Shown: positions 3,897 to 55,087 of the stretch, in pieces
Position numbering within the stretch: the first letter of the stretch is position 1
How the letters are laid out: every line of letters begins with the position of its first letter
IMG/VR virus record: IMGVR_UViG_3300046535_000965
Coordinates: 1-55,087 of that record
Strand: one strand, 5' to 3'
From: a virus
DNA length: 55,087 bases
Program-made: the position numbers and the translations under genes
The notes under the pieces: generated by a model
The model's database searches: none
Told to the model about the DNA's origin: nothing
The model's input: only the letters and a program-made list of their open reading frames with translations

Positions 3897-4234
3897 TTGT
3901 ACCCGCTCGTGGCCGACATAGCGTGGGCCAATTCACACACAGCACAATGGCAAGAGTCTCCGTGTAATTCATGGTGGCAATCCTTCAACACCTTTTTGCC
4001 AGCTTCGCGTAAATGGCCTATGGCTGCCAAAGCTGATTGGTGTGATTCCTCACGCGAATTCTTGTCCCACGCGGCTCCGGCCTCGAAGGCTTCATGTGCC
4101 GATCTATAGGTTTCTGAGCGCCCTTCGCGCACTAACTTTTCACGCTGTTCATCACTCAGGTAAGAAGTGAGTGACTTGAGTCTAGCCATTGCATTTTCGT
4201 GAGCCGCTCGGTCCAACTTCTCAGCGTCATTCAC
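3893..4234 (-). CDS. Hypothetical protein, DAEKLD...AGAAW family
   Basis: 113 residues from a GTG that overlaps the RuvC-like stop (GTGA). The N-terminus NDAEKLDRAAHENAMARL and the AFEAGAAWDKNSR segment match the protein at 3078-3380. The C-terminal part has a Cys/His cluster (DCHHELHGDSCHCAVC), which could bind a metal and is absent from the paralogue. Function unknown. Confidence 0.6.
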   Translation of the reverse strand: MNDAEKLDRAAHENAMARLKSLTSYLSDEQREKLVREGRSETYRSAHEAFEAGAAWDKNSREESHQSALAAIGHLREAGKKVLKDCHHELHGDSCHCAVCELAHAMSATSGYK

Positions 4235-4713
4235 ACAGTCCTCATTCCATAAAGGGCGATCAACCCCGCGTCCACCAGGCCCATGTCGGGAACCTTGCTC
4301 TTCATCGTGCGCCGGGCGTCCACCTCCGGGAAGATCCGTGAGAAGGCCATGCGGCTGCGCTCCTTGGGCTCCAGGCTGCGCGATATGCCCGCGTGAACAT
4401 TGGCCATCCAAACCTGGGGCCGCACGTCCACAACGGGAATCTTGTGGGCCACCAACAACGCCTCCAAGGCGCCATACACACGCCCAAATTTGAACATCGA
4501 AACCGATCCATTTTTTGGCATTGCGTGCACCTTCTCAAGATAGGCCACACGGATGTCGCGCGCATGGTCTCCAATGAAACGGTTCAGCGTTTGCAGATCA
4601 AGCTCGTTGCCGATTGTGGGCATTGGCTCAAGCAGCATCCCGTCCTTAGGATGGATGATGGCCAGGCCGCCGCCCAATCCAGGATCAACGCCAAGAATGC
4701 TAACTCCGCTCAT
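4231..4713 (-). CDS. RuvC-like Holliday junction resolvase
   Basis: 160 residues from the ATG behind AGGAGTAAAC. An RNase H-fold resolvase: ILGVDPGLGGGLAII at the N-terminus supplies the first catalytic Asp, AYLEKV at about 77-82 the Glu, and the C-terminal VDAGLIALYG block the last Asp. The length fits phage RuvC-like proteins (150-180 residues). The likely role is cutting branched DNA in replication or before packaging. A second resolvase of the unrelated RusA fold is encoded at 54041-54619. Confidence 0.82.
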   Translation of the reverse strand: MSGVSILGVDPGLGGGLAIIHPKDGMLLEPMPTIGNELDLQTLNRFIGDHARDIRVAYLEKVHAMPKNGSVSMFKFGRVYGALEALLVAHKIPVVDVRPQVWMANVHAGISRSLEPKERSRMAFSRIFPEVDARRTMKSKVPDMGLVDAGLIALYGMRTV

Positions 4714-4924
4714 GTTTACTCCTGTGCTCCAATTCAAGAATTAAATGCTCCGCGATATCCACCGAAGCTATGGCAATCCCGCGCGCCACTTCTACTTGAA
4801 GGACATTGGCCGAGCGATAAGGCCCGGCCACCAATGCTTGCATGGCCAACGCAGAAAAATATTCAATAATGGTGACGCCAGGAACTCCGTTTTTAGAATC
4901 TGGAAACGCCGAACAGTTTTTCAC
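4700..4924 (-). CDS. Hypothetical protein
   Basis: 74 residues, GTG start overlapping the upstream stop. Predicted helix-rich with IIEYFSALAMQALVAG and ASVDIAEHLILELEHR segments. The end overlaps the RuvC-like start by 14 bases. Not recognised. Confidence 0.6.
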   Translation of the reverse strand: MKNCSAFPDSKNGVPGVTIIEYFSALAMQALVAGPYRSANVLQVEVARGIAIASVDIAEHLILELEHRSKHERS

Positions 4925-5448
4925 TTCGGGTCCACCATGGAGTTCGCGCCCTTCTTGCTCGTCTCAAGTTTGTGCACTGATGCAATCTCCGCGTCCTTGT
5001 CGTCCTCAACAGCCTGATTCTTGGCCGGATATTTGGGCGCCATTTTTTGCCAGCGCTCCTTTGGCTTCTCGTTGCCTTTCTCCTTTGCGGCCTTCTCAGC
5101 CAACGTGAGCTGCCGGTCTTCGGGCTTCATCTCGATGGACTCCATGACCTGGCCCTCGAACCAAAATTCGATAATATTTGCGGCAAAATTCTTGACCGCC
5201 GTGCAAGTTACCGGGCGGCGCTCAACGCCTTCGTCTATCATGGCGAGCTGCTTATCGCGCTTCTCCGTGAGGATCTTGATCTTCTCATTGTGCGTGGCCA
5301 GGTCGCGCTTCTTGTTGGCTTCGGCGGCGTCAAGCTGGTTGTTCAGCTTGGCAGCCAACTCGCCCTTGCGGGCTAAATCTTCATCGTTTAGCTTGAAAGG
5401 AAGTGTCCTCTCGCATCGTTCGCCCTCTGGTGTTTTCTTCTTTGCCAT
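4921..5448 (-). CDS. Hypothetical coiled-coil protein
   Basis: 175 residues, highly charged. A long coiled coil spans about residues 25-75 (Glu/Lys/Ala-rich), followed by a short globular strand-helix part (TAVKNFAANIIEFWFEG) and a Lys/Glu-rich tail. It has AGGGAG upstream of the ATG. A heptad-rich first half followed by a small compact domain is typical of phage DNA-metabolism accessory proteins, but I cannot assign a function. Confidence 0.65.
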   Translation of the reverse strand: MAKKKTPEGERCERTLPFKLNDEDLARKGELAAKLNNQLDAAEANKKRDLATHNEKIKILTEKRDKQLAMIDEGVERRPVTCTAVKNFAANIIEFWFEGQVMESIEMKPEDRQLTLAEKAAKEKGNEKPKERWQKMAPKYPAKNQAVEDDKDAEIASVHKLETSKKGANSMVDPK

Positions 5449-5468
5449 TTAATTCTCCCTGTTGTTGG

Positions 5469-6179
5469 TTATTTGTTTGCGTCCGAAAAATCACTTACAG
5501 CTTTTAACATGTTCACCCCCACCTGAGTATGGTGAGCCAAAGCGTTAGCGCATTTTATTGCCATCTCGATCCTCTCCAGAGGAACCCGACTCACGCCCTC
5601 CTCCGACTTCTCCAAGTCCAAGTCCCTCACGGATTCTTGCATCAGCGCGAGCAACTTCATTTGTGATTGCCTCAACCGCATCAGCGAGCCCAACGCCGCC
5701 CGTTGCAAGAGAGCGGGCAATTCTTCTGATGACGCGCGCCGGGTTACGACGGTCTCTGCGGTGAGCTTCACGGGCTCGACATTGCTCAATGTTTTCGTCT
5801 CGCCACCGTTTGCTACCGGCTCTTGTTTTGGCGCGGTGTCGGCGGCTGTAATCAACTCGCTGGGCATTTTTTCGCTCCTTGTGGGTTTGGTAATAGGCTC
5901 TGTAGCGGGCACGTTTTTTCGCGAGTACTTCAGGGGCCAGGAAGCTTGAATTGCCCCGACGTAATTCTTTTTGTCGGAACTTTGGGTCTTCGTGATATTT
6001 TTTTCGCTTACGCTCACGGTCGTATGCGCGCCGTCGTTCGAGGTCTTCGGCTGATCGGCCCATTGTCTCTCCTGCCCGCATTTGAAATTGTGGTAAACGG
6101 TCTTGCTCCCCACGCTCACTTTGAACTTGATGCCGCATCCGGCGCAGGCACGCTCAATGAGTTCCACTTGCTGGCTCAT
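5469..6179 (-). CDS. Zinc-motif protein with long linker (outer gene of an overlapping pair)
   Basis: 236 residues from the ATG overlapping the DUF3850 stop (ATGA). The N-terminus has CAGCG and KCGQ, a possible zinc knuckle. Residues about 45-150 are low-complexity, Thr/Ser/Lys/Glu-rich, as in a disordered linker. The last 80 residues look like a real helical domain (LPALLQRAALGSLMRLRQSQ and onward). Its linker and helix DNA is also open in another frame with its own ribosome site (5545-6063). Function unknown. Confidence 0.6.
   Translation of the reverse strand: MSQQVELIERACAGCGIKFKVSVGSKTVYHNFKCGQERQWADQPKTSNDGAHTTVSVSEKNITKTQSSDKKNYVGAIQASWPLKYSRKNVPATEPITKPTRSEKMPSELITAADTAPKQEPVANGGETKTLSNVEPVKLTAETVVTRRASSEELPALLQRAALGSLMRLRQSQMKLLALMQESVRDLDLEKSEEGVSRVPLERIEMAIKCANALAHHTQVGVNMLKAVSDFSDANK
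5545..6063 (-). CDS. Nested Arg/Tyr-rich protein in a second frame
   Basis: 172 residues read in a different frame wholly inside the gene at 5469-6179. The ATG has a strong AGGAGAG five bases upstream. The product has the repetitive Arg/Lys/Tyr pattern (RAYDRERKRKKYHEDPKFRQ; ARYRAYYQTHKERKNAQR; RWRDENIEQCRAREAHRR) seen in small phage-encoded basic proteins, often DNA-associated. The compositional quality of this frame and the ribosome site argue for real translation. The alternative is that the outer frame is real here and this pattern is a shadow. Confidence 0.5.
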   Translation of the reverse strand: MGRSAEDLERRRAYDRERKRKKYHEDPKFRQKELRRGNSSFLAPEVLAKKRARYRAYYQTHKERKNAQRVDYSRRHRAKTRAGSKRWRDENIEQCRAREAHRRDRRNPARVIRRIARSLATGGVGLADAVEAITNEVARADARIREGLGLGEVGGGRESGSSGEDRDGNKMR

Positions 6180-6478
6180 AGCCATCCCAACTGCTGGATG
6201 CCCAGAATCACGTAGCCTTCTTTTACAAATCTAGAATCGTCCAAAACATAAGTGATGACCTTCTTGCAGAACCGGCCCGAATATGGATTGCGATCCAAAA
6301 CTTTGTCCATTCCTGATGGATCGTACTCGCGCAAATAAAGAACATCACTATACCTGTAGTCCCGGTCGGCCACCCGAACTTCAAATGGTTTGGCACCAGA
6401 ATTAACAGCATCAAAAAACTGAGGCGTAATCTTTAGCTCGTGCTCCATAGGCAGCCGCGCCGTCATGCTGAAACTCAT
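6176..6478 (-). CDS. DUF3850 (ASCH-like) protein
   Basis: 100 residues. The sequence ELKITPQFFDAVNSGAKPFEVR, with YSDVLYLREYDP, YSGR, ITYVLDD and EGYVILGI following in order, matches DUF3850, a small ASCH/PUA-like fold family common in phages and thought to bind RNA or modified bases. The start is the ATG that overlaps the upstream stop. The link to the modified-base operon nearby is speculative. Confidence 0.75.
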   Translation of the reverse strand: MSFSMTARLPMEHELKITPQFFDAVNSGAKPFEVRVADRDYRYSDVLYLREYDPSGMDKVLDRNPYSGRFCKKVITYVLDDSRFVKEGYVILGIQQLGWL

Positions 6479-6630
6479 AACCCCTTCTCCTGGCACTTCA
6501 CCATGTGGTCGCTCCAAACCGGGCGGCACTCAGGGCAGAGCCACACTGAATGCAGGTGCTTGAATGCGAAATAAATCCAGCCCCGGTTGTCGTTGGTTTC
6601 TTTGGCGCAGCCGCCGCACTTGTATTTCAT
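6475..6630 (-). CDS. Zinc-ribbon micro-protein, 51 residues
   Basis: Starts MKYKCGGCAKE and later has LCPECRPVW, two CxxC pairs 28 residues apart with aromatic residues between, the layout of a zinc ribbon. Both ends overlap neighbours (ATGA). Function unknown. Confidence 0.6.
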   Translation of the reverse strand: MKYKCGGCAKETNDNRGWIYFAFKHLHSVWLCPECRPVWSDHMVKCQEKGL

Positions 6631-7688: not shown

Positions 7689-8257
7689 AATTCCTCCTTA
7701 GGCGGTTCAATGGCCTTCTTCTCGGCCAGGGTTTTGACAATGTCCAGAACGCGCGAAGCCTTCGCTTCGGGCAATCCGATTGGCTGATCGTGGATTCCGG
7801 CGGCTGCCAGGTTCTGAGTTGACTCACACAGGTCGCGTATCTGCGCCTGGAGCATTGTTGGCGGGGTAAGGCCGAATCCGTTGCCCGTGGTTTCACACAG
7901 CACCAGCCAGCCACCATGACGCTGAACCGCCATCCAACCAAGCTCGCCGATGTATTCCTTGGCTGCCGATCCATTCGGAGCACCGAACTTGGACAGAGCC
8001 GCAATCACTCGGCTGGCTGCCTCACGCGCCAAATCCTTCTGATCCGGTTTCTGCGGCAGGTAATCCTTCAAAATCGAGTGGGGCGGGATGGGGAATCGGG
8101 TGTTCTTGATGTCGCGCATATAGTCCTGGCCGGCACGCATGACCACAGTCTCTGGGAACTGCTGAAGGACGTTCACATACATTTCGAGTTGGCGTTTTTC
8201 CAGCTCGTAATTGTAGAACCGCGCCATGTTCAGCAGCATTTTTTCAATAGGAATCAT
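7685..8257 (-). CDS. Putative helicase loader / replisome accessory protein
   Basis: 190 residues. Residues about 1-75 (NMARFYNYELEKRQLEMYV, FPETVVMRAGQDYMRD, FPIPPHSILKDYLPQ) match the helical pattern of G39P-like or P-like helicase loaders. The middle segment YIGELGWMAVQRHGGW suits a compact DNA- or protein-binding part. Directly after the initiator-like gene and coupled to it by ATGA, as loader genes often are. It likely delivers a replicative helicase, which is not visible in this window, to the origin. Confidence 0.55.
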   Translation of the reverse strand: MIPIEKMLLNMARFYNYELEKRQLEMYVNVLQQFPETVVMRAGQDYMRDIKNTRFPIPPHSILKDYLPQKPDQKDLAREAASRVIAALSKFGAPNGSAAKEYIGELGWMAVQRHGGWLVLCETTGNGFGLTPPTMLQAQIRDLCESTQNLAAAGIHDQPIGLPEAKASRVLDIVKTLAEKKAIEPPKEEL

Positions 8258-9024
8258 CGTGGACCTCGTTCAATTAAATCCTGTTCAAGTCGATCAAGGG
8301 CGTCATAGGTTCTTGTCGCCCTTGTTGAAGCCGCGCCTTTGTGGTTGTCGTATTTGCCATCATTGACCTTGGCCCAAGTCTCCGGCTTCAACAGAAAGTC
8401 GAAATCAGCGCGCCAACCACGGTCATTGTTTCCGGTGCAGAAAGCACTTTCAGCTAAACGCTTCACCGTTGCCTGCCAGACCTCAGGTTCCTGTTCCTTC
8501 CAGCGCGCCTTGGCCCGTTCCAGACGTTTACCGGTACATGAAACAGCGGCTGGCAATTTGCCTCTGTTTTGGTTCCAGACTAATAACAAAGGATGCGGAG
8601 CGGCGGGGGCGGGGTCCAACGGAAGTTGGGCCTGAGCCCCGTTAGGGGCGATATCCTTTTTATGTGATGCCTTGTTAAGTAATGCATTGCCTTGCCTTGT
8701 AATGCATCTAAAGGGCTCAATTTTTTCGACTGTAAGTAACCGTAATTGCTCAAGCCGATTGAGTGCGCTTCGTGTTCGCAACGTGTTCGCACCGACTTGG
8801 CTTCGTAGTTGCTTTGATGTTGCTACCACTGTTGCTGAGGTCTCGTCCCCACACCGCAACAGTATTGCTATGTACAATAAACGGTCTTGCAACGTGGCTG
8901 CTGATATCTTTGGGTCATCGAAAAACCGGGTCGACAAAAATATATATTGGTGCCCGCGTTTTTTCTTGCCGTTGTGTTTGTCCCAGTTCAGGACCTTGAT
9001 CGTGTAAACTTCTTCCTTCGCCAA
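8254..9024 (-). CDS. Phage replication protein (winged-helix, DnaD/O-like)
   Basis: About 256 residues from a TTG with GGGGGG eight bases upstream; a second in-frame TTG at 9057 falls inside the terminator T-run and is less likely. The N-terminus (KVLNWDKHNG, YIFLSTRFFDDP) and the winged-helix-like region around residues 60-95 (TSKQLRSQVGANTLRTRSAL) fit phage replisome organisers. The C-terminal AFCTGNNDRGWRADFDFLLK block is the well-known C-terminal motif of phage replication initiator proteins. The neighbouring loader gene supports the role. Confidence 0.75.
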   Translation of the reverse strand: MAKEEVYTIKVLNWDKHNGKKKRGHQYIFLSTRFFDDPKISAATLQDRLLYIAILLRCGDETSATVVATSKQLRSQVGANTLRTRSALNRLEQLRLLTVEKIEPFRCITRQGNALLNKASHKKDIAPNGAQAQLPLDPAPAAPHPLLLVWNQNRGKLPAAVSCTGKRLERAKARWKEQEPEVWQATVKRLAESAFCTGNNDRGWRADFDFLLKPETWAKVNDGKYDNHKGAASTRATRTYDALDRLEQDLIERGPR

Positions 9025-9055
9025 AGATGACCCCCCATCAGTGATGCTAAAAGAC

Positions 9056-9102
9056 AAAAAAAAACGCGACCCCCTACTCAGATCCGAAGATCAGGGCCGC
9101 GC
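9056..9102 (-). terminator. Strong Rho-independent terminator with UUCG loop
   Basis: On the minus strand a GC-rich stem (GCGCGGCCC against GGGGGTCGCG, with an inner GATC/GATC pair) closes on a TTCG tetraloop and runs straight into nine Ts. It ends about 32 bases before the replication gene start, downstream of the glycosyltransferase gene. Its 3' inner arm can alternatively pair with an upstream segment (see the attenuator finding). Confidence 0.85.
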
Positions 9103-9244: not shown

Positions 9245-9991
9245 TTAGGTTTTTAAGGCGCGCCATTTAATTTTGACGTCGGGGCGCCCGTCCTTCTTGA
9301 CGTGATGCTCGCATATGCCTGGCCACAGTTCGACCATCCGCTTTGACCAATGATTTTCCAGACCGGCTTTATACGCATCGTGAAGGCCGCCCTTGTTGCT
9401 CCCATTCTTGGGTGCGGAAAATGCGAACCGGCTCGCCCTGGCTGATTGTAGGCCCAACTGAAGGGCTTGCAGAACAAAGTCGCGATCCTCTTTGCAATTC
9501 TCCCGGTAGTTGATGGCCATGGTCCGGGGCACATTGATCAGGACCGCCACATCGCAATAACTGTTCATGGCATAATCCTTCTTCGAGGCCCAGGCATATT
9601 GGCCGTATTCAAGCGCGCCGATCCCAAGGTTGGGCAGGACGGTGAGGGCATCTTCGGCCCCTTTCAATACCACCGAGAAGGGCGCCCTGACGCATTTGTT
9701 CTCCTTCACCAGGAACATGCCGCTGACGTCGTCATCCATCATCCAGAACCAATGGAATTGACGTGCGCGGGCATATTGTAGACACGCGCGCCGGGCAAAG
9801 GTGATGCCTTTGTCGTTTTCAGTAAGGCCGATAAGGCGCTCTTGGAACTGGGTTTCTGGATAGGCAGCGGCATAGGTGGACATTTCTTGCGGCTCAACAA
9901 ACAAATAATGTTCAATTCGTTCATTGATCAGAGCCGTGATGGCTTTGCTTTGGCCCGCGCGCCCCTTGGTGGCGATCAAAACTGGATACAT
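9245..9991 (-). CDS. TET-associated DNA-base glycosyltransferase (TAGT-like)
   Basis: 248 residues from the ATG three bases after the dioxygenase stop, behind GGGAGAA. GT-A-like: it opens with PVLIATKGRAGQSKAI and has WMMDDDVSGMF at about 84-93, a DxD-type metal/nucleotide-sugar motif. EDRDFVLQAL and HDAYKAGLENHW follow towards the C-terminus. This layout matches the family found next to phage TET/JBP dioxygenases and believed to add a sugar to the hydroxymethylated base in DNA. The adjacent dioxygenase makes the call strong; the sugar and the base are not known. Confidence 0.8.
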   Translation of the reverse strand: MYPVLIATKGRAGQSKAITALINERIEHYLFVEPQEMSTYAAAYPETQFQERLIGLTENDKGITFARRACLQYARARQFHWFWMMDDDVSGMFLVKENKCVRAPFSVVLKGAEDALTVLPNLGIGALEYGQYAWASKKDYAMNSYCDVAVLINVPRTMAINYRENCKEDRDFVLQALQLGLQSARASRFAFSAPKNGSNKGGLHDAYKAGLENHWSKRMVELWPGICEHHVKKDGRPDVKIKWRALKT

Positions 9992-9993
9992 GG

Positions 9994-10869
9994 TTATTCT
10001 CCCGGGAAGAGCGAGTCCCCCTGCTTGCGGTTTTTGGCATAACTTAGCTCGGCTTCGGGGCTGGAACAAAGAGGCATCTTCTCGCGCATGTAGTAAACTA
10101 TGGAACAACGCTGCGCACCTGCGGTTAAAGCACAAATTTGTGTGTTTCCATGGAATTCGTGCGGGTCGAATAATATTAGGTCGCCCGTGTCCAATCCGGC
10201 CGCAACTCTGAAGTCCGGCAAAACCAAATTACCGCCCAGGTATTTGCCATCGCGGATGACCGTCATTGCGCTGAAGCCCTCCGGTAAGTCACCGGCATCT
10301 TTGTGGCAGCTCGTCCTGAAATTCTTGTTCACGGTGAGCGTGCTGAAGACGCTCTTCCCGATCAGCCAGGCTGGGTTAACGGTGTCGGCGATTGCTCTTT
10401 GGGCCGCCCAGCGCTCTGGGACATGCTCCTTGAAGTGCGCGTCCACCAATTCAACCAAAGGCAGCAGCCCATTGAAGAGCTCCGGGTGTTCAGCATTCCA
10501 TGAACAGGCATGGCAATATGGCATCCGTATGGTGCGTTCGAAAAATCCAATGATGCCGCTGCTGACTTCCCAGCCTTTCGGGGAACGGAGCACCTTACTT
10601 TTCGTGCCGTCTTCCTTGGTGCGGTACTCGCTCTTGATCCCGGTGGCAGAGCCGCGGTTCTCAGTTTTGGCATTGTAGTTTTTCAGTATGGACCAGGCTT
10701 GCAGGTTGAGGTCGAGAGGGATGGCGCCCTTGAGCAGCACCATGAGCGGTGAACCATCGGGCTTATAAACCGTGGCGTTCTCATTGAGCAAGGTGTCGTA
10801 GTCCTTCTCGTCAACAAAGCGCCGGGTCCAATCGCGCTCAGTCCTAGTGGTGAGATGTAAGTGCTGCAC
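9994..10869 (-). CDS. TET/JBP-family 2-oxoglutarate/Fe(II) dioxygenase acting on DNA bases
   Basis: 291 residues, GTG start behind GGGA, overlapping the ParB-like gene by 26 bases. The iron site is visible as H189-x-D191 (SCHKDAGDLPEG) and a distal His at 240 (DPHEFHGNT); R254 (AQRCSIVYYMRE) is placed to bind 2-oxoglutarate. GFFERTIRMPYC and LGGNLVLPDF are further family-type segments. TET/JBP enzymes hydroxylate the methyl of 5-methylcytosine or thymine in DNA. No methyltransferase gene is present in the window, so which base is oxidised is unresolved. It lies in one operon with a ParB-like protein and a glycosyltransferase. Confidence 0.88.
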   Translation of the reverse strand: MQHLHLTTRTERDWTRRFVDEKDYDTLLNENATVYKPDGSPLMVLLKGAIPLDLNLQAWSILKNYNAKTENRGSATGIKSEYRTKEDGTKSKVLRSPKGWEVSSGIIGFFERTIRMPYCHACSWNAEHPELFNGLLPLVELVDAHFKEHVPERWAAQRAIADTVNPAWLIGKSVFSTLTVNKNFRTSCHKDAGDLPEGFSAMTVIRDGKYLGGNLVLPDFRVAAGLDTGDLILFDPHEFHGNTQICALTAGAQRCSIVYYMREKMPLCSSPEAELSYAKNRKQGDSLFPGE

Positions 10870-11518
10870 GCATTCCCATGAGTACCGTGTCAGTTATATT
10901 TTCGGTCTTGTAAATCGAAGTCAGGTGATTTACCAGGTTCAAGAATTCCTCGTGCGACTTGGCATCGAAGAACAATTGGACCTGGCGAACGCCTTCGCTG
11001 CCGCTTGGTAAAACGCCAACTTGTGGAGGGGCGGTTGGCAGGTTCTCAGGGTTGATCTGGAACATGGCCCCGAACTTCTCCATGTTGATGTCCTGAAATT
11101 TGAATGTTGAAACGATGTTGTCCAACGGGATGTCGTTGACCTTGCAGAAATCGAAAAGGCTTTTCTCTGTCATGATGCCGTACTGTGAAGTGCCGGCCAG
11201 GACTTTGCGCTTGGCTGTGGCGAAGTCATCGGCATCCACAATGCTTACCGGGATCTCGGGAATAATGAAGTTCTCGGTTTCTTCCATCATCTTCAGGGCG
11301 GTGAGCCGCTGGTGCCCATCAATGATGTAGTTGTGGCCCTCGTGCTGCCAGATGTGCATGGTGAAACTGAACCCCAGATCAATCAGGCCCTTGCGCAGGG
11401 ACTCATATTCGGCCCGCTCAAGGCGCTTGAGATCCCCTTGGAAAGGCTCCAGTTTTGCCAATGGAACGGTCATTGCCCCGCGCACCGCAATCTTGATCGC
11501 CTGCCTAATTCCTTCCAT
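10844..11518 (-). CDS. ParB/sulfiredoxin-fold protein, modified-DNA operon partner
   Basis: 224 residues from the ATG behind GGGGG. A longer start at 11551 is unlikely because it sits inside the -10 of a good promoter. Residues about 17-75 form a ParB-like domain, with PLAKLEPFQGDLKR at the start and the signature IIDGHQRLTAL at about 65-75. The C-terminal half has FDFCKVNDIPLDNIV and a helical tail. ParB-like domains of this type recur next to phage base-modification genes and may act as nuclease, nucleotidase or DNA-binding partner. First gene of the operon. Confidence 0.8.
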   Translation of the reverse strand: MEGIRQAIKIAVRGAMTVPLAKLEPFQGDLKRLERAEYESLRKGLIDLGFSFTMHIWQHEGHNYIIDGHQRLTALKMMEETENFIIPEIPVSIVDADDFATAKRKVLAGTSQYGIMTEKSLFDFCKVNDIPLDNIVSTFKFQDINMEKFGAMFQINPENLPTAPPQVGVLPSGSEGVRQVQLFFDAKSHEEFLNLVNHLTSIYKTENITDTVLMGMRAALTSHH

Positions 11519-11546
11519 CGAGCCCCCAGTTTTTCGTTTCAAACCG

Positions 11547-11574
11547 ATCATATCGAAAAGGCTCGGCCTTGCAA
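11547..11574 (-). promoter_or_regulatory. Sigma70-type promoter for the ParB-TET-glycosyltransferase operon
   Basis: On the minus strand TTGCAA (11574-11569), a 16-base spacer, then TATGAT (11552-11547). The -10 matches 5 of 6 and the -35 4 of 6 consensus bases. Transcription would start about 20 bases before the ATG at 11518. Confidence 0.6.
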
Positions 11575-11888: not shown

Positions 11889-12179
11889 ATGAGCCCGCGC
11901 ATCCAGGCATTCCGCGATCTCGAAAACCACCCAATATTTCGCGGAGCCATGAACCGTATGACTGCCCCCGAGCGCGCCTGGTGCGAGGAGTTCATCACCA
12001 AGCACGACCACCTAAATTATACGGCCTTCAGCGGGGAACTCCACCAATGGCATGTGGACACCCCGGCCCACCTGAAGCCGAAGAAGTTGAACACGATGTA
12101 CTCGTTGGTGATGGCAGCCAACGTGATTCCACCTGACTTCAAAACGCAACGTAAACTTTCCCAAGGAGGGAACAAATGA
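11889..12179 (+). CDS. Hypothetical protein
   Basis: 96 residues, starting two bases after the previous stop. Helical, Trp/His-containing (APERAWCEEFITKHDHL). Not recognised; no motif. Confidence 0.6.
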   Translation: MSPRIQAFRDLENHPIFRGAMNRMTAPERAWCEEFITKHDHLNYTAFSGELHQWHVDTPAHLKPKKLNTMYSLVMAANVIPPDFKTQRKLSQGGNK

Positions 12180-12670
12180 AGAACGTAATACTCGCTATTA
12201 TGGCGATTTCGATGATCGCTTGCGGTAAGGTTGGCCCGGCTGCATTGGTGGCCAATGACACCACGGGACCGACAGGACCCACCGGCCCACAGGGACCCAC
12301 GGGGCCAGCCGGCACTTCAGTCTCAAGTCAGAAGACCTGCATCTACTCAACAGGTGTTGGGGCTGCGAACCAAGTCTACAACTACCAGCGGACGAATTTC
12401 GCGGACGGCAGCCAGCTTATTTCCTGCAACTACAACCACACCATCTCCAACACCGAATTCGTTACGGCGGCGGGGGTTGTGGCAAACGGCGACGTCTGCG
12501 TTGTCGGCAATGAAATGGAATCGGTTGTGGGTTTCCCGCAGATGTTGTTTGAACCCAACGGCACGGGCGGCTTCCAGGTTTACAGTTACCCGGCTGGTGT
12601 ACAAACCACGGTCACGGGCGCGATGACCTGCAATGACACCACGACGACTGCTGTTGGATATCTATTTTAA
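12176..12670 (+). CDS. Collagen-like lipoprotein
   Basis: 164 residues, ATGA overlap and AAGGAGG upstream. It begins with a lipoprotein signal (MKNVILAIMAISMIACGK, lipobox IAC), so the mature protein should be lipid-anchored. A short collagen-type tract (TGPTGPTGPQGPTGPAG, about residues 37-53) is followed by a beta-rich domain of about 110 residues with three Cys. Collagen-like lipoproteins with a globular head are frequent in Bdellovibrio-type genomes. A surface role in the infected cell, such as superinfection exclusion or masking, is speculation. Confidence 0.7.
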   Translation: MKNVILAIMAISMIACGKVGPAALVANDTTGPTGPTGPQGPTGPAGTSVSSQKTCIYSTGVGAANQVYNYQRTNFADGSQLISCNYNHTISNTEFVTAAGVVANGDVCVVGNEMESVVGFPQMLFEPNGTGGFQVYSYPAGVQTTVTGAMTCNDTTTTAVGYLF

Positions 12671-40330: not shown

Positions 40331-41053
40331 CTACAGCGGGTCGCGCAACGGCGGAAGCGGTTCCTTGAATGATCCGCCGGCATCCCAGGACTTAACCCTT
40401 TGCTCGAAAAGGCCAAAGTTTGATGCGTTACAGGCGTCCTTCATCTTCCTGATGTCAGGGGCATAGCTGTCATCGCCCATATGGTTGGCCTTGAGTCCAG
40501 GGATGTAGAAGGAACTGAACCCGGCGCGATTGACGCGCTCGTTAAAATCATAGTCCTCGCCATATCGGTCAAAGCTCTCCGGGAACAGACCCACGGCATC
40601 GACCACCTCGCGTTTGAACATCAAGGGTCCATAAACGCGGTTCAACTTCTCGTTGCACCAATTGGCTTTGAAACCAAACTTCTCGGTTAAAGGGGGCGTC
40701 ATCCATGCAGCCCATTCGGCACCGCAGATGCCAGGCTTGGGGACCTTGTCCAACCATTGCCGGTAAATGGTCCCCCAATTCGCTGGCCACATTATATCGT
40801 TCGACATCAAAGCTATGTAATCGCCCTCCGCGCGCAGGAACAGTTGGTTGAAGGACTTGCCGATGCCTTCGTTGATTTTGTTCTTGCGGAAGTAGGCTGG
40901 CTTCTGGGCCTCCAGGAAGCTCACAACAGGCGCCTCCGAGCCCTGATCACACACCAACAGTTCATACGGCTCTCGGCATTCGCGCAGATTGTTGGGCAGC
41001 GTGGCCTTCAACATGTCATATCGGTGCCATGACAGCATCAGGATGGAGATCAT
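40331..41053 (-). CDS. GT-A family 2 glycosyltransferase
   Basis: 240 residues, TAATG overlap. SILMLSWHRYDMLKATLPNN is a GT2 start; GIGKSFNQLFLRAEGDYIAL with SNDIMWP carries the metal-binding D-x region; FDRYGEDYDFNERVNRAGFS is the GT2 acceptor/catalytic block. It transfers a sugar from a nucleotide sugar. In this place it could modify host surface glycans, or virion proteins or DNA. Confidence 0.8.
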   Translation of the reverse strand: MISILMLSWHRYDMLKATLPNNLRECREPYELLVCDQGSEAPVVSFLEAQKPAYFRKNKINEGIGKSFNQLFLRAEGDYIALMSNDIMWPANWGTIYRQWLDKVPKPGICGAEWAAWMTPPLTEKFGFKANWCNEKLNRVYGPLMFKREVVDAVGLFPESFDRYGEDYDFNERVNRAGFSSFYIPGLKANHMGDDSYAPDIRKMKDACNASNFGLFEQRVKSWDAGGSFKEPLPPLRDPL

Positions 41054-41310
41054 TATTTGCCCCTTGGCTTCAGGATTAAATGTTTCGGGTTGCAGCATGT
41101 CCTTGAATGGCAGGCTTGTTTGACGTGGAGGCCGCCCAGTATTGGGCCGCGGTGGTGTTCATAACTGAATCGGGCCGCGCGCACCTTCTTGCCATCCAGC
41201 CCAGTGAAGTAGGGCATGCTGTCTTGGTCCGTGTTGCCAACCCAGCCCCAGCACTCATCAGGCGGGCCTTGGATGCGGATGTTCTGAGCGAAGATTTCGA
41301 AAGTGGTCAT
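41053..41310 (-). CDS. HNH-like protein, first His replaced
   Basis: 85 residues. CWGWVGN..., FSYEHHRGPILGGLHVKQAC and CCNPKHLILKP match HNH_3-type small homing endonucleases. The usual His in 'V.H.C' is Gln here (VKQAC), so cleavage may be lost or altered. Between a metallo-hydrolase and a glycosyltransferase gene, fitting a mobile or degenerate homing gene. Confidence 0.65.
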   Translation of the reverse strand: MTTFEIFAQNIRIQGPPDECWGWVGNTDQDSMPYFTGLDGKKVRAARFSYEHHRGPILGGLHVKQACHSRTCCNPKHLILKPRGK

Positions 41311-43575: not shown

Positions 43576-45205
43576 CTTCTTCGTCTCCCGTTTCTCCATC
43601 AATGCCCAACAGGTCGGGCTGCGGAATAGGCTCTGTTCTTGCCTTGAAACCAGCTATGTCGCGCACCTTATTCAAGTCGTCCAGGTCGTTGATGTCAATG
43701 GCACCCATGGTGACGGCTGTCTGCACGCAAGTCATTTCCTTCTCGCGCTCATCGACTGACATCTCGCGGTCTGCGAACTCGCCTAACCCATGCTCTTCCC
43801 AGGCTTCGCGGGGGAAGTTGTAGGCAATGATTTCTTTAATGAATGGCATGAGCGTTTGTTTGAGACCGGCGAGGAACCCATCGAGTATTTTGTCGAAGGT
43901 CTTGGCATGCTCCTGTCCCAAGGCGTAACTGCCGGCGCCGTCTCCAGAACTGAACACGAGCGGAGGAAGTAGAAGAGCGCGCATAATGCGAGTATCGAGA
44001 TAATTGAGGGCGGCAATGAAATCCTGAGCGTTCGATTGTTGATTGATAAAGTCATGTTCAACGAATTGTCCTTTCTTCCCGGGCATGATGATCACGGAGT
44101 CGTTGTGTACGCGGCTTAGGGCCTTCTTCACAGCGTCCTGCGCGCGGATGCCGATGTTCATGTTCTGGAGGTCTTTGCCGGCCACGTATTTGTCGGAGTC
44201 GATGAAGGTGGCTGCCGGGTCCACGTACCAAACCTGAAGCGGGGTGCCCTTGCGGTCCAATGCCACAGCCATCATCTGGAGCACAGTGTCCTTCAAGACC
44301 CAGTGCTTGTAGGCGCGGCGTAACAGTGAACGGCCATATGGGTTGCCGAACTTGCCCGAGCAATCGAATGAGTAGTGGATGCATTTACGTACAGGAATAC
44401 GTACGGACATGTAGCTGAACATGTTCGGGGTGCGGAGCGGGAAGGGGTAATCACCCATCTTGGCATACAGATCAGGTCTCCAATTGGGCGAGCCCGATGT
44501 GGTGGCCGTCGAGAATCCGAACAGGTAATTGGTGCCGCTGCCGAAAAGGGCCGGGTTGTAGTTGCGCTGGTACTGGAGGATGCCGTCTATGGTAAGCTCA
44601 CCAGTACGGTCCGTTTCAAACAAGAGCGTGCCCGGAGGAAGCTGCACGATCTTTTTGGGCACGAAGCCATCATTGGTGTTGGCCCACACCTTTTCACCTA
44701 CCGAGAAGCCCGCCCACGAGGCACTGAGCATCTCCTTGACCGCGTTCGTCCATCCGCCCTGAATCTCATTGAGGGCCTTGTTGACGAACTTGGCCACCTC
44801 TTCCGAAGGATGTGTGTATAGCCCAAGGCGCGCAGCCAAGCAGGTTGTGAGGAAATCGACGCCAGAGCCCACGGTTTCATCCGTGTCCACCATGCGCTTG
44901 AAGGTCTCAACGCTGACGGTAGAGGGGTTCTGAATGAACCGGTACACCTGGTTGTAAAGAGCAGGAATATTAGTGCCGCGCTGGGTGGCGAGATCATCCA
45001 GGCTCTTGATCTCCGCATGGCGGGCATAGAGCATTTCGTCCATGTCGCGCTGGTCTTCACTGTAGTCGTCCTTGTATGAGGCCGGTGATTCCGAAGGCTT
45101 TGGTGTGGAGCCGCCGCCGGTGCCGCCGGACTTCAATTCGGTCTTCTCCCCAGGGTTGAAGCTGTGCGGAAGGAAACCTGCTGGCTTTGGCTTATCAACG
45201 TCCAC
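43493..45205 (-). CDS. Portal protein (DUF935, Mu gp29-like)
   Basis: 570 residues from GTG behind GGAGAG; an ATG at 45226 would overlap more. HAEIKSLDDLATQRGTNIPA, LYNQVYRFIQ, SASWAGFSVGEKVWANTNDG, CIHYSFDCSGKFGNPYGRSL and LGQEHAKTFDKILDGFLAGL are DUF935 landmarks. It forms the ring through which DNA is packed. The C-terminal ~60 residues are Gly/Pro/Asp-rich. Its 3' end overlaps the LpxA gene in another frame. Confidence 0.85.
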   Translation of the reverse strand: MDVDKPKPAGFLPHSFNPGEKTELKSGGTGGGSTPKPSESPASYKDDYSEDQRDMDEMLYARHAEIKSLDDLATQRGTNIPALYNQVYRFIQNPSTVSVETFKRMVDTDETVGSGVDFLTTCLAARLGLYTHPSEEVAKFVNKALNEIQGGWTNAVKEMLSASWAGFSVGEKVWANTNDGFVPKKIVQLPPGTLLFETDRTGELTIDGILQYQRNYNPALFGSGTNYLFGFSTATTSGSPNWRPDLYAKMGDYPFPLRTPNMFSYMSVRIPVRKCIHYSFDCSGKFGNPYGRSLLRRAYKHWVLKDTVLQMMAVALDRKGTPLQVWYVDPAATFIDSDKYVAGKDLQNMNIGIRAQDAVKKALSRVHNDSVIIMPGKKGQFVEHDFINQQSNAQDFIAALNYLDTRIMRALLLPPLVFSSGDGAGSYALGQEHAKTFDKILDGFLAGLKQTLMPFIKEIIAYNFPREAWEEHGLGEFADREMSVDEREKEMTCVQTAVTMGAIDINDLDDLNKVRDIAGFKARTEPIPQPDLLGIDGETGDEEDGGDGPTPKQPGTPNGGGGARRPPGAK

Positions 45206-45746
45206 GATTGCTCTCCAACCATTCAAGGGCCGGTGGCAAGGTCATGTCCCTGGTGGACATAAATGCGTTGCTCACGCTGGGCCAAGTGATTCCAACATCA
45301 GGATCAAGTGCTTGCACACCGCAATCAGATTCTTTGTCCCAAAGCGTTGTGCATTTACAGTAAACAACCGAATCAGGCTCCATGGCAAGAAACCCATGGG
45401 CTGTGCCAGGCGGGCAGTACATTGCCCTCGCTCCACTGAGCAACTCGCCGTGCCATTTGAAGAACGTGGGGCTGTCCCTTCTCAGGTCCAGACAGACATT
45501 CCATACAGCGCCGGCAATACAGCGGACCAGTCTTCCCTGAGGGTTGTTGGTCTGAAGGTGAAGCCCGCGTAGGACGTTCTTTTTGCTGTTGATGATGTTG
45601 TCCTGAGCCCATTCGGTGGGCAAACCAGAGAGCCAAAAATCACGCTGACTCCATGTCTCAACGAAGTTCCCGCGCGTGTCCTCGAACAGCGTGGTCTCAA
45701 TGGCCCTGCAATCGTGGACCTTTGTTTCCCAGTGGAGAAAGGCCAT
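45195..45746 (-). CDS. RmlC-like dTDP-4-dehydrorhamnose 3,5-epimerase
   Basis: 183 residues. Typical RmlC cupin: FEDTRGNFVETW, NVLRGLHLQ (His63, catalytic base), GRLVRCIAGAVWNVCLDLRR, CPPGTAHGFL and LDPDVGITWP. It makes the precursor of dTDP-L-rhamnose. The residues where the catalytic Tyr is normally expected (about 135-136) read Leu-Trp here. This could mean altered activity, but the alignment is by eye. It is inserted between small genes and the portal gene. Confidence 0.85.
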   Translation of the reverse strand: MAFLHWETKVHDCRAIETTLFEDTRGNFVETWSQRDFWLSGLPTEWAQDNIINSKKNVLRGLHLQTNNPQGRLVRCIAGAVWNVCLDLRRDSPTFFKWHGELLSGARAMYCPPGTAHGFLAMEPDSVVYCKCTTLWDKESDCGVQALDPDVGITWPSVSNAFMSTRDMTLPPALEWLESNRGR

Positions 45747-54625: not shown

Positions 54626-55087
54626 TCACCCCCTGAGGTCGTTGCTGCTCCCCAGGTTCATGATATCACAGATGATCTTTGCGCGGGCTTCGTTGACCTT
54701 TTCTAACCGAAGGTTGTCCATAATGTAGGTCCAGCTCGCCTCACAGGTCTTCGTCACGTCAATCTTGCCACTCAATACGGCCTCCATGGCGGTCACAAAC
54801 TGGGCATCGTTCTCGTAGGTCAGGATGCCAGGCCTGTTCCATTCATCCCAAGCGGGCGCCACAGTGACAGCCCCGGCGAAGGTGGCCTCAATCCAAGCGA
54901 TGTTGGATTTGCAGTGGTTGAACATGCTCCCGAACAACGGAACCATCATCACCGAGGGCTTCAGATCGTGAATGTATTGGTGGTAATCCAGCACGTCCAA
55001 CCCATCGCTCACGACCGTGTTCTCGCGCTCCATTGTGTCCGTCAGGAACCAAAGGTTGTCCCCCATGAACCGCCAAATCCAATCCTT
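54626..55087 (-). CDS. GT-B glycosyltransferase, C-terminal part (cut by window)
   Basis: The reading frame is open past the right edge (no start in the window is required). LDVLDYHQYIHDLKPSVMMV, FNHCKSNIAWIEATFAGAVT and NRPGILTYENDAQFVTAMEA look like the C-terminal Rossmann domain of GT-B glycosyltransferases of family 1/4 type. Likely transfers a sugar, target unknown. Confidence 0.7.
   Translation of the reverse strand, partial: KDWIWRFMGDNLWFLTDTMERENTVVSDGLDVLDYHQYIHDLKPSVMMVPLFGSMFNHCKSNIAWIEATFAGAVTVAPAWDEWNRPGILTYENDAQFVTAMEAVLSGKIDVTKTCEASWTYIMDNLRLEKVNEARAKIICDIMNLGSSNDLRG

Follow-up and report, generated by a model that had tools for sequence, protein, structure and literature searches.

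A ParB–TET–TAGT gene cluster in a tailed phage record

The stretch of DNA analyzed here (the window) is the whole 55,087-base virus record IMGVR_UViG_3300046535_000965, whose recognizable sheath, baseplate, major head protein, portal and terminase genes identify its source as a tailed phage with a predicted contractile tail. The record has no end repeats, so a gene for a C5-cytosine methyltransferase (C5-MTase) could sit beyond its ends. Its minus strand encodes, in order of transcription, a ParB-like protein, a TET/JBP dioxygenase and a TET-associated glycosyltransferase (TAGT), and we recovered as minus-strand open reading frames all three of the coupled genes that the initial annotation had described.

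10844–11551, minus strand: ParB-like gene, 235 aa (open reading frame; PHROGs, leave-one-out profile, AlphaFold, Foldseek)
9994–10869, minus strand: TET/JBP Fe(II)/2-oxoglutarate dioxygenase, 291 aa, GTG start (PF12851; AlphaFold; Foldseek)
9245–9991, minus strand: TAGT, 248 aa (PF20691; 37% identity to a P12024L protein)
8254–9057, minus strand: replication-initiation-like gene, neighbor of the operon
11547–11574, minus strand: sigma70-like TTGCAA-16-TATGAT (sequence match; not above chance)

The 3′ end of the ParB frame overlaps the start of TET by 26 nt, and the TAGT ATG sits 2 nt past the TET stop; such tight packing implies a single transcript and probably translational coupling. Because the genes upstream lie on the opposite strand, the operon begins in a divergent intergenic region. 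The sigma70-like promoter proposed earlier is present as a string of letters, but a 3-kb stretch holds three sites of this type where chance alone would give 2.8, and we therefore rejected it as evidence for the operon. Its TATGAT hexamer overlaps the ParB ATG at 11551; were the promoter real, translation would have to begin downstream, for example at the ATG at 11518, which yields a 224-aa protein. On the plus strand, positions 12176–12670 encode a small, lipoprotein-like product carrying a GPTGPTGPQGPTGPAG repeat of the collagen type.

The dioxygenase and glycosyltransferase have intact active-site motifs

The dioxygenase matched Pfam family PF12851 far above the cut-off (E = 1.9e-23), and a phage-TET profile matched human TET2 by sequence (9e-8). 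With an AlphaFold model built from the family alignment (pLDDT 93), the best Foldseek matches in the PDB were CcTet (1e-13), NgTet1 (7e-13), TET2 (TMq up to 0.69) and CMD1. FTO, an RNA/DNA demethylase, was also among the fold matches, ranked far below the DNA-acting TETs. The relevant residues of the two enzymes map as follows.

10297–10305, minus strand: H189-K-D191, iron ligands of TET (sequence; alignments)
10150–10152, minus strand: H240, iron ligand of TET (sequence; alignments)
10108–10110, minus strand: R254, 2-oxoglutarate-binding arginine of TET (sequence; alignments)
10084–10086, minus strand: R262 of TET, in the column of TET2 His1904 (alignment)
9728–9736, minus strand: DDD motif of TAGT, residues 86–88 (sequence; alignment)

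H189, D191, H240 and R254, which the initial annotation had named with exactly these residue numbers, were invariant in a first alignment of 11 phage homologues. In larger sets, H189-x-D191 was found in 113 of 114 TETs of the window's family (hereafter the ParB family) and in 68/68 TETs of the C5-methyltransferase-linked control family introduced below (C5-MT-type), while H240 and R254 were each present in all 114 ParB-family TETs, R254 aligning with the arginine of the TET2 motif R-I-S-L-V-F-Y. The protein thus has the H-x-D...H site, the 2-oxoglutarate-binding arginine, the Tet_JBP match and the beta-helix oxygenase fold by which TET/JBP enzymes are recognized. The glycosyltransferase matched PF20691, again far above the cut-off (E = 8.3e-19), and shares 37% identity along its entire length with the TET-adjoining protein of Nonlabens phage P12024L; besides this profile match it has the expected linkage to TET, as TAGTs do at about 30 other loci. 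The DDD motif reported for it withstood comparison, with D87 conserved in 31 and D88 in 30 of the 32 TAGTs aligned. Profile searches could have placed these two proteins outside the TET/JBP and TAGT families and instead returned PF12851 and PF20691.

The upstream protein adopts a predicted ParB-CTPase fold

Of the three gene products, the ParB-like protein, which the initial annotation named without discussing it, proves the most telling. Its N domain has a ParB-CTPase fold with a Box-II-like G-H-Q-R-L-T-A (G79, R82), and its conserved C-terminal helical pair, V-x-V-Q-L-F-F-D...T-D-T-V-L, is common to TET-linked ParBs. The earlier assignment to the ParB fold was borne out by matches to PHROG ParB families (2.8e-8), by a profile of TET-linked ParBs built without the window protein (3.7e-17) and by an AlphaFold model from the family alignment (pLDDT 82), whose best Foldseek matches were ParB, Noc and PadC. 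We assign it to the ParB-CTPase fold by the predicted structure of the N domain and the near-invariant Box-II/P-motif arginine R82, its match to Pfam ParB_N being below threshold. In other ParB-fold proteins, mutation of the Box-II arginine abolishes NTP binding (PMC12704722). The same survey describes phage ParB-fold proteins as common, functionally diverse and often fused to DUF3850, and its main text makes no mention of dioxygenases. A DUF3850/ASCH-like protein (4.1e-25) is encoded free-standing in the window at 6179–6529 on the minus strand.

ParB and C5-cytosine methyltransferase appear to be alternatives upstream of phage TETs

Searches of viral contigs identified at least 578 relatives of the window TET, of which the best 80 and further loci were read; a search of bacterial genomes gave only seven loci, some of them phage-like. 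We then recorded the preceding gene at the 97 related loci where 900 bases or more of sequence before TET were available. A TET-type ParB stood directly upstream on the same strand in 85 of them (21 of 24 clusters at 65% identity), and a C5-MTase in none. The control was a different TET family, to which the enzyme of Methylophilales phage Melnitz belongs; there the slot before TET held a C5-MTase at 62 of the 63 testable loci and ParB at none. Given these opposite occupancies, ParB and C5-MTase appear to be alternatives in the slot before TET, although the control is a single clade in the tree and the contrast therefore goes back to a small number of evolutionary events rather than to 160 independent cases. 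The C5-MT-type, actinophage and T4-like TETs each formed one group in this tree, and the window TET branched deeply within the ParB-family radiation.

Across whole records, PF00145 was found in 15/15 C5-MT-type contigs versus 1/50 ParB-family contigs. The single positive contig, L076, has no ParB gene; its positions 4179–6435 encode a ParB-less TET–TAGT pair and, downstream, a short C5-methyltransferase-like protein with PPC and VENV motifs. On the L001 contig, a PF00145 protein lies about 11 kb from TET. A profile search of the window's entire 55-kb record, which may be partial, found no PF00145 protein, so that the initial annotation's statement that the window lacks a DNA methyltransferase holds as to the C5 type. 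C5-MTases were also absent from ten complete isolate genomes that carry ParB-family, T4-like or actinophage TETs and come from hosts including Pelagibacter and Actinobacteria, namely P12024L, HTVC112P, DLP_6, Cr30, S-CBWM1 and C48C1 and the actinophages PRodriguez, Wooper, MementoMori and MO526.

The genes after TET varied from locus to locus and included FkbM-type methyltransferase, TAGT, PIG-L deacetylase, GT1 and radical SAM genes. A constant ParB–TET pair with changeable sugar chemistry would have the look of DNA decoration under host-defense selection. Most of the ParB-less exceptions belonged to a P12024L-like subgroup with TET and TAGT, often with a small nuclease-like protein between them, and the T4-like large phages DLP_6, Cr30, S-CBWM1 and C48C1 (loci L006, L007, L009 and L010) encode a longer TET with Arg262 and no adjoining ParB. 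A seeming natural ParB–TET fusion at locus L211 was discarded, its two frames being run together by what looks like a frameshift when set against near-identical loci.

The TET base pocket differs between groups

Position 262 of the window TET aligns with TET2 His1904, the H of R-I-S-L-V-F-Y-Q-H, which contacts the base in TET2. The window TET has Arg here and so lacks the Asp typical of the C5-MT-type group. Arg occupied this position in 114/114 ParB-family TETs and in all four T4-like TETs, whose genomes are without a C5-MTase; Asp was found in 64 of the 68 control TETs, and Leu in 4/4 actinophage TETs, together with Asn at position 194. The split implies that the base pocket differs between TET groups. 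We do not claim Arg262 as a code for thymine: the L076 TET carries it alongside a C5-MTase, and the Leu262/Asn194 combination of the actinophage TETs makes Arg262 a clade marker rather than a proven thymine code. Asp194 is the counterpart of NgTet1 Asp234 and TET2 Asn1387, which contact the 4-amino group of methylcytosine. Kept in both ParB-family and C5-MT-type TETs, this residue would by its chemistry suit cytosine, and among structural points it speaks most strongly against thymine.

Comparison with known modification systems

Phage cytosine hypermodification by C5-MT–TET–glycosyltransferase systems was reportedly described by Burke et al. in PNAS in 2021, a paper cited in PMC12730594. Such characterized systems likewise have a TET/JBP enzyme followed by glycosyltransferases and sugar-tailoring enzymes; the window differs in having ParB in the C5-methyltransferase slot, Arg rather than Asp at the base contact, and no C5-MTase with its TET anywhere in a record that is possibly partial.

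Nearer in layout are several isolates. Mycobacterium phage PRodriguez encodes ParB, TET and TAGT in the window's order, followed by PIG-L and a P-loop kinase, whereas Gordonia phage Wooper and Rhodococcus phage Tonitrus have ParB before TET as in the window and then aGPT-Pplase2 and a 5hmU DNA kinase. Amino acid:DNA transferases and P-loop kinases are thymidine-hypermodification enzymes. These actinophage cassettes differ from the window in their TET (only ~26% identical, with Asn194/Leu262), in their place before the terminase gene and in an additional kinase plus a deacetylase or amino acid:DNA transferase. Pelagibacter phage HTVC112P has ParB–TET in the same order (TET 37% identical), with an FkbM methyltransferase in place of TAGT; P12024L has TET–TAGT in the same order (35% and 37% identical), followed by an N6/N4 methyltransferase, but lacks ParB.

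Base J synthesis in kinetoplastids (JBP1/JBP2 and JGT) likewise pairs a TET/JBP hydroxylase with a glycosyltransferase and needs no methyltransferase. JBP1 places its hydroxylase by means of a separate DNA-binding domain (PMC10276184, PMC8616854). That J-DNA-binding domain is fused, whereas the window encodes a separate ParB-fold protein, and the thymine activity of the window enzyme is putative. Pre-replicative 5hmdU/5hmC phages of the SPO1 and T4 types rely on a hydroxymethylase of the thymidylate-synthase family (PF00303), which was found neither in the window nor in 19 of 20 relatives. Supply of hydroxymethyl-dNTPs by that route is thus unlikely, and we set aside a hydroxymethylated nucleotide pool as the source of the modification.

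A candidate post-replicative hypermodification operon

We consider it highly likely that the operon serves DNA hypermodification; its enzymes would very probably oxidize a methylated base in DNA and then add a sugar. The TET/JBP enzyme would act on a pyrimidine after its incorporation into DNA, hydroxylating the 5-methyl group, and TAGT would then move a sugar from a nucleotide sugar onto the new hydroxymethyl group, the likeliest product being a glycosylated 5-hydroxymethyluracil resembling base J. The ParB-like protein, a putative DNA-loading protein with an NTP-binding fold on the same transcript, would most likely bring TET to the DNA and set where and how much of it is modified. The modified base would probably shield the genome from restriction or another DNA-targeting defense. 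Taken as a whole, we hold this account to have a somewhat better than even chance of being right. A dTDP-4-dehydrorhamnose 3,5-epimerase-like protein (45198–45746, minus strand; PF00908, 3.9e-50), a family-2 glycosyltransferase (40334–41098) and a glycosyltransferase-like protein (54629–55066) are also encoded in the window and could be a source of sugar for DNA or for surface glycans.

The initial annotation had left the choice between 5-methylcytosine and thymine open. It is now narrower, since the control TETs nearly always have a C5-MTase and the ParB family has none linked, and thymine is favored without being proven. A ParB-like protein in the usual place of a cytosine methyltransferase points to thymine rather than methylcytosine, and we judge thymine the somewhat more probable substrate. 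Of the 5-methylpyrimidines it alone requires no methyltransferase, and none was found; in hosts of very different kinds the family has no linked C5-MTase; and distant ParB-TETs, as in Wooper, have an amino acid:DNA transferase and P-loop kinase as neighbors. In addition, the same gene order in Tonitrus has been annotated as a thymine system (PMC11955845). An unlikely, though by no means negligible, alternative is that TET acts on 5-methylcytosine made by a methyltransferase of the host, or by one that the phage encodes beyond the contig, giving glycosylated 5-hydroxymethylcytosine. The structurally matched TET2, NgTet1, CcTet and CMD1 all act on 5-methylcytosine, Asp194 is retained as in C5-MT-type TETs, the contig may be incomplete, and PF00145 proteins occur on the L001 and L076 contigs. 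Against these points stand the 0/97 linked C5-MTases and their absence from the ten complete genomes, whose unrelated hosts make dependence on host-derived 5-methylcytosine improbable.

The part played by ParB can be weighed separately. Its most economical role would be that of a DNA-loading or targeting partner replacing the specificity otherwise supplied by a methyltransferase, by analogy with the J-binding domain that positions the JBP1 hydroxylase (PMC8616854). That ParB instead stands outside the chemistry, as a co-transcribed regulator, partition or anti-defense protein while TET and TAGT modify DNA, seems doubtful to us. About one-eighth of the family does without ParB, as do the C5-MT-type and T4-like TETs, and the diversity of phage ParB-fold proteins (PMC12704722) would accommodate such a bystander; yet ParB adjoins TET at 85 of the 97 loci and again at the distant actinophage TETs, its frame overlaps that of TET in the window, and TET-linked ParBs have a C-terminal signature in common. 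We regard it as very improbable that the dioxygenase targets RNA or free nucleotides rather than phage DNA: FTO is among its fold matches and several records name TET a tRNA enzyme, but the DNA-acting TETs rank far higher, and the linkage is to TAGT, amino acid:DNA transferase and ParB.

ParB-type modules as a variant of phage TET systems

The initial annotation was correct on both the genes and the kind of system. By its predicted chemistry the operon belongs with the known TET/TAGT hypermodification systems, among which the ParB type, lacking a methyltransferase, stands as a variant of its own. TET/JBP enzymes are thought to be phage-derived. ParB–TET neighbors have already been annotated here and there in actinophages; the literature searched contained neither a description of them as a class nor a report of a phage TET that oxidizes thymine. 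We tentatively suggest, as an idea rather more apt to fail than to hold, that phage TET modules come in two types: in one, TET follows a C5-methyltransferase that produces 5-methylcytosine and determines sequence specificity; in the other, it follows a ParB-fold NTP switch that loads it onto DNA as a thymine hydroxylase. If so, the ParB type would amount to a prokaryotic version of base J synthesis, gated by a nucleotide and guided by a clamp, that spans marine, soil and actinobacterial phages. It would also offer a concrete, testable role for many orphan phage ParB-fold proteins, and possibly a new enzyme with which modifications of thymine could be written or read. A single virus collection holds more than 570 relatives, and distant members occur in Mycobacterium smegmatis and Gordonia phages that can be cultivated, which makes thymine oxidation directly testable. 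Phage TETs in public deposits (L005, L006, L007, L009, L193 and relatives) carry misleading names, among them SNF2 DNA repair protein, DnaJ chaperone, queuine tRNA-ribosyltransferase and DpdA-like transglycosylase.
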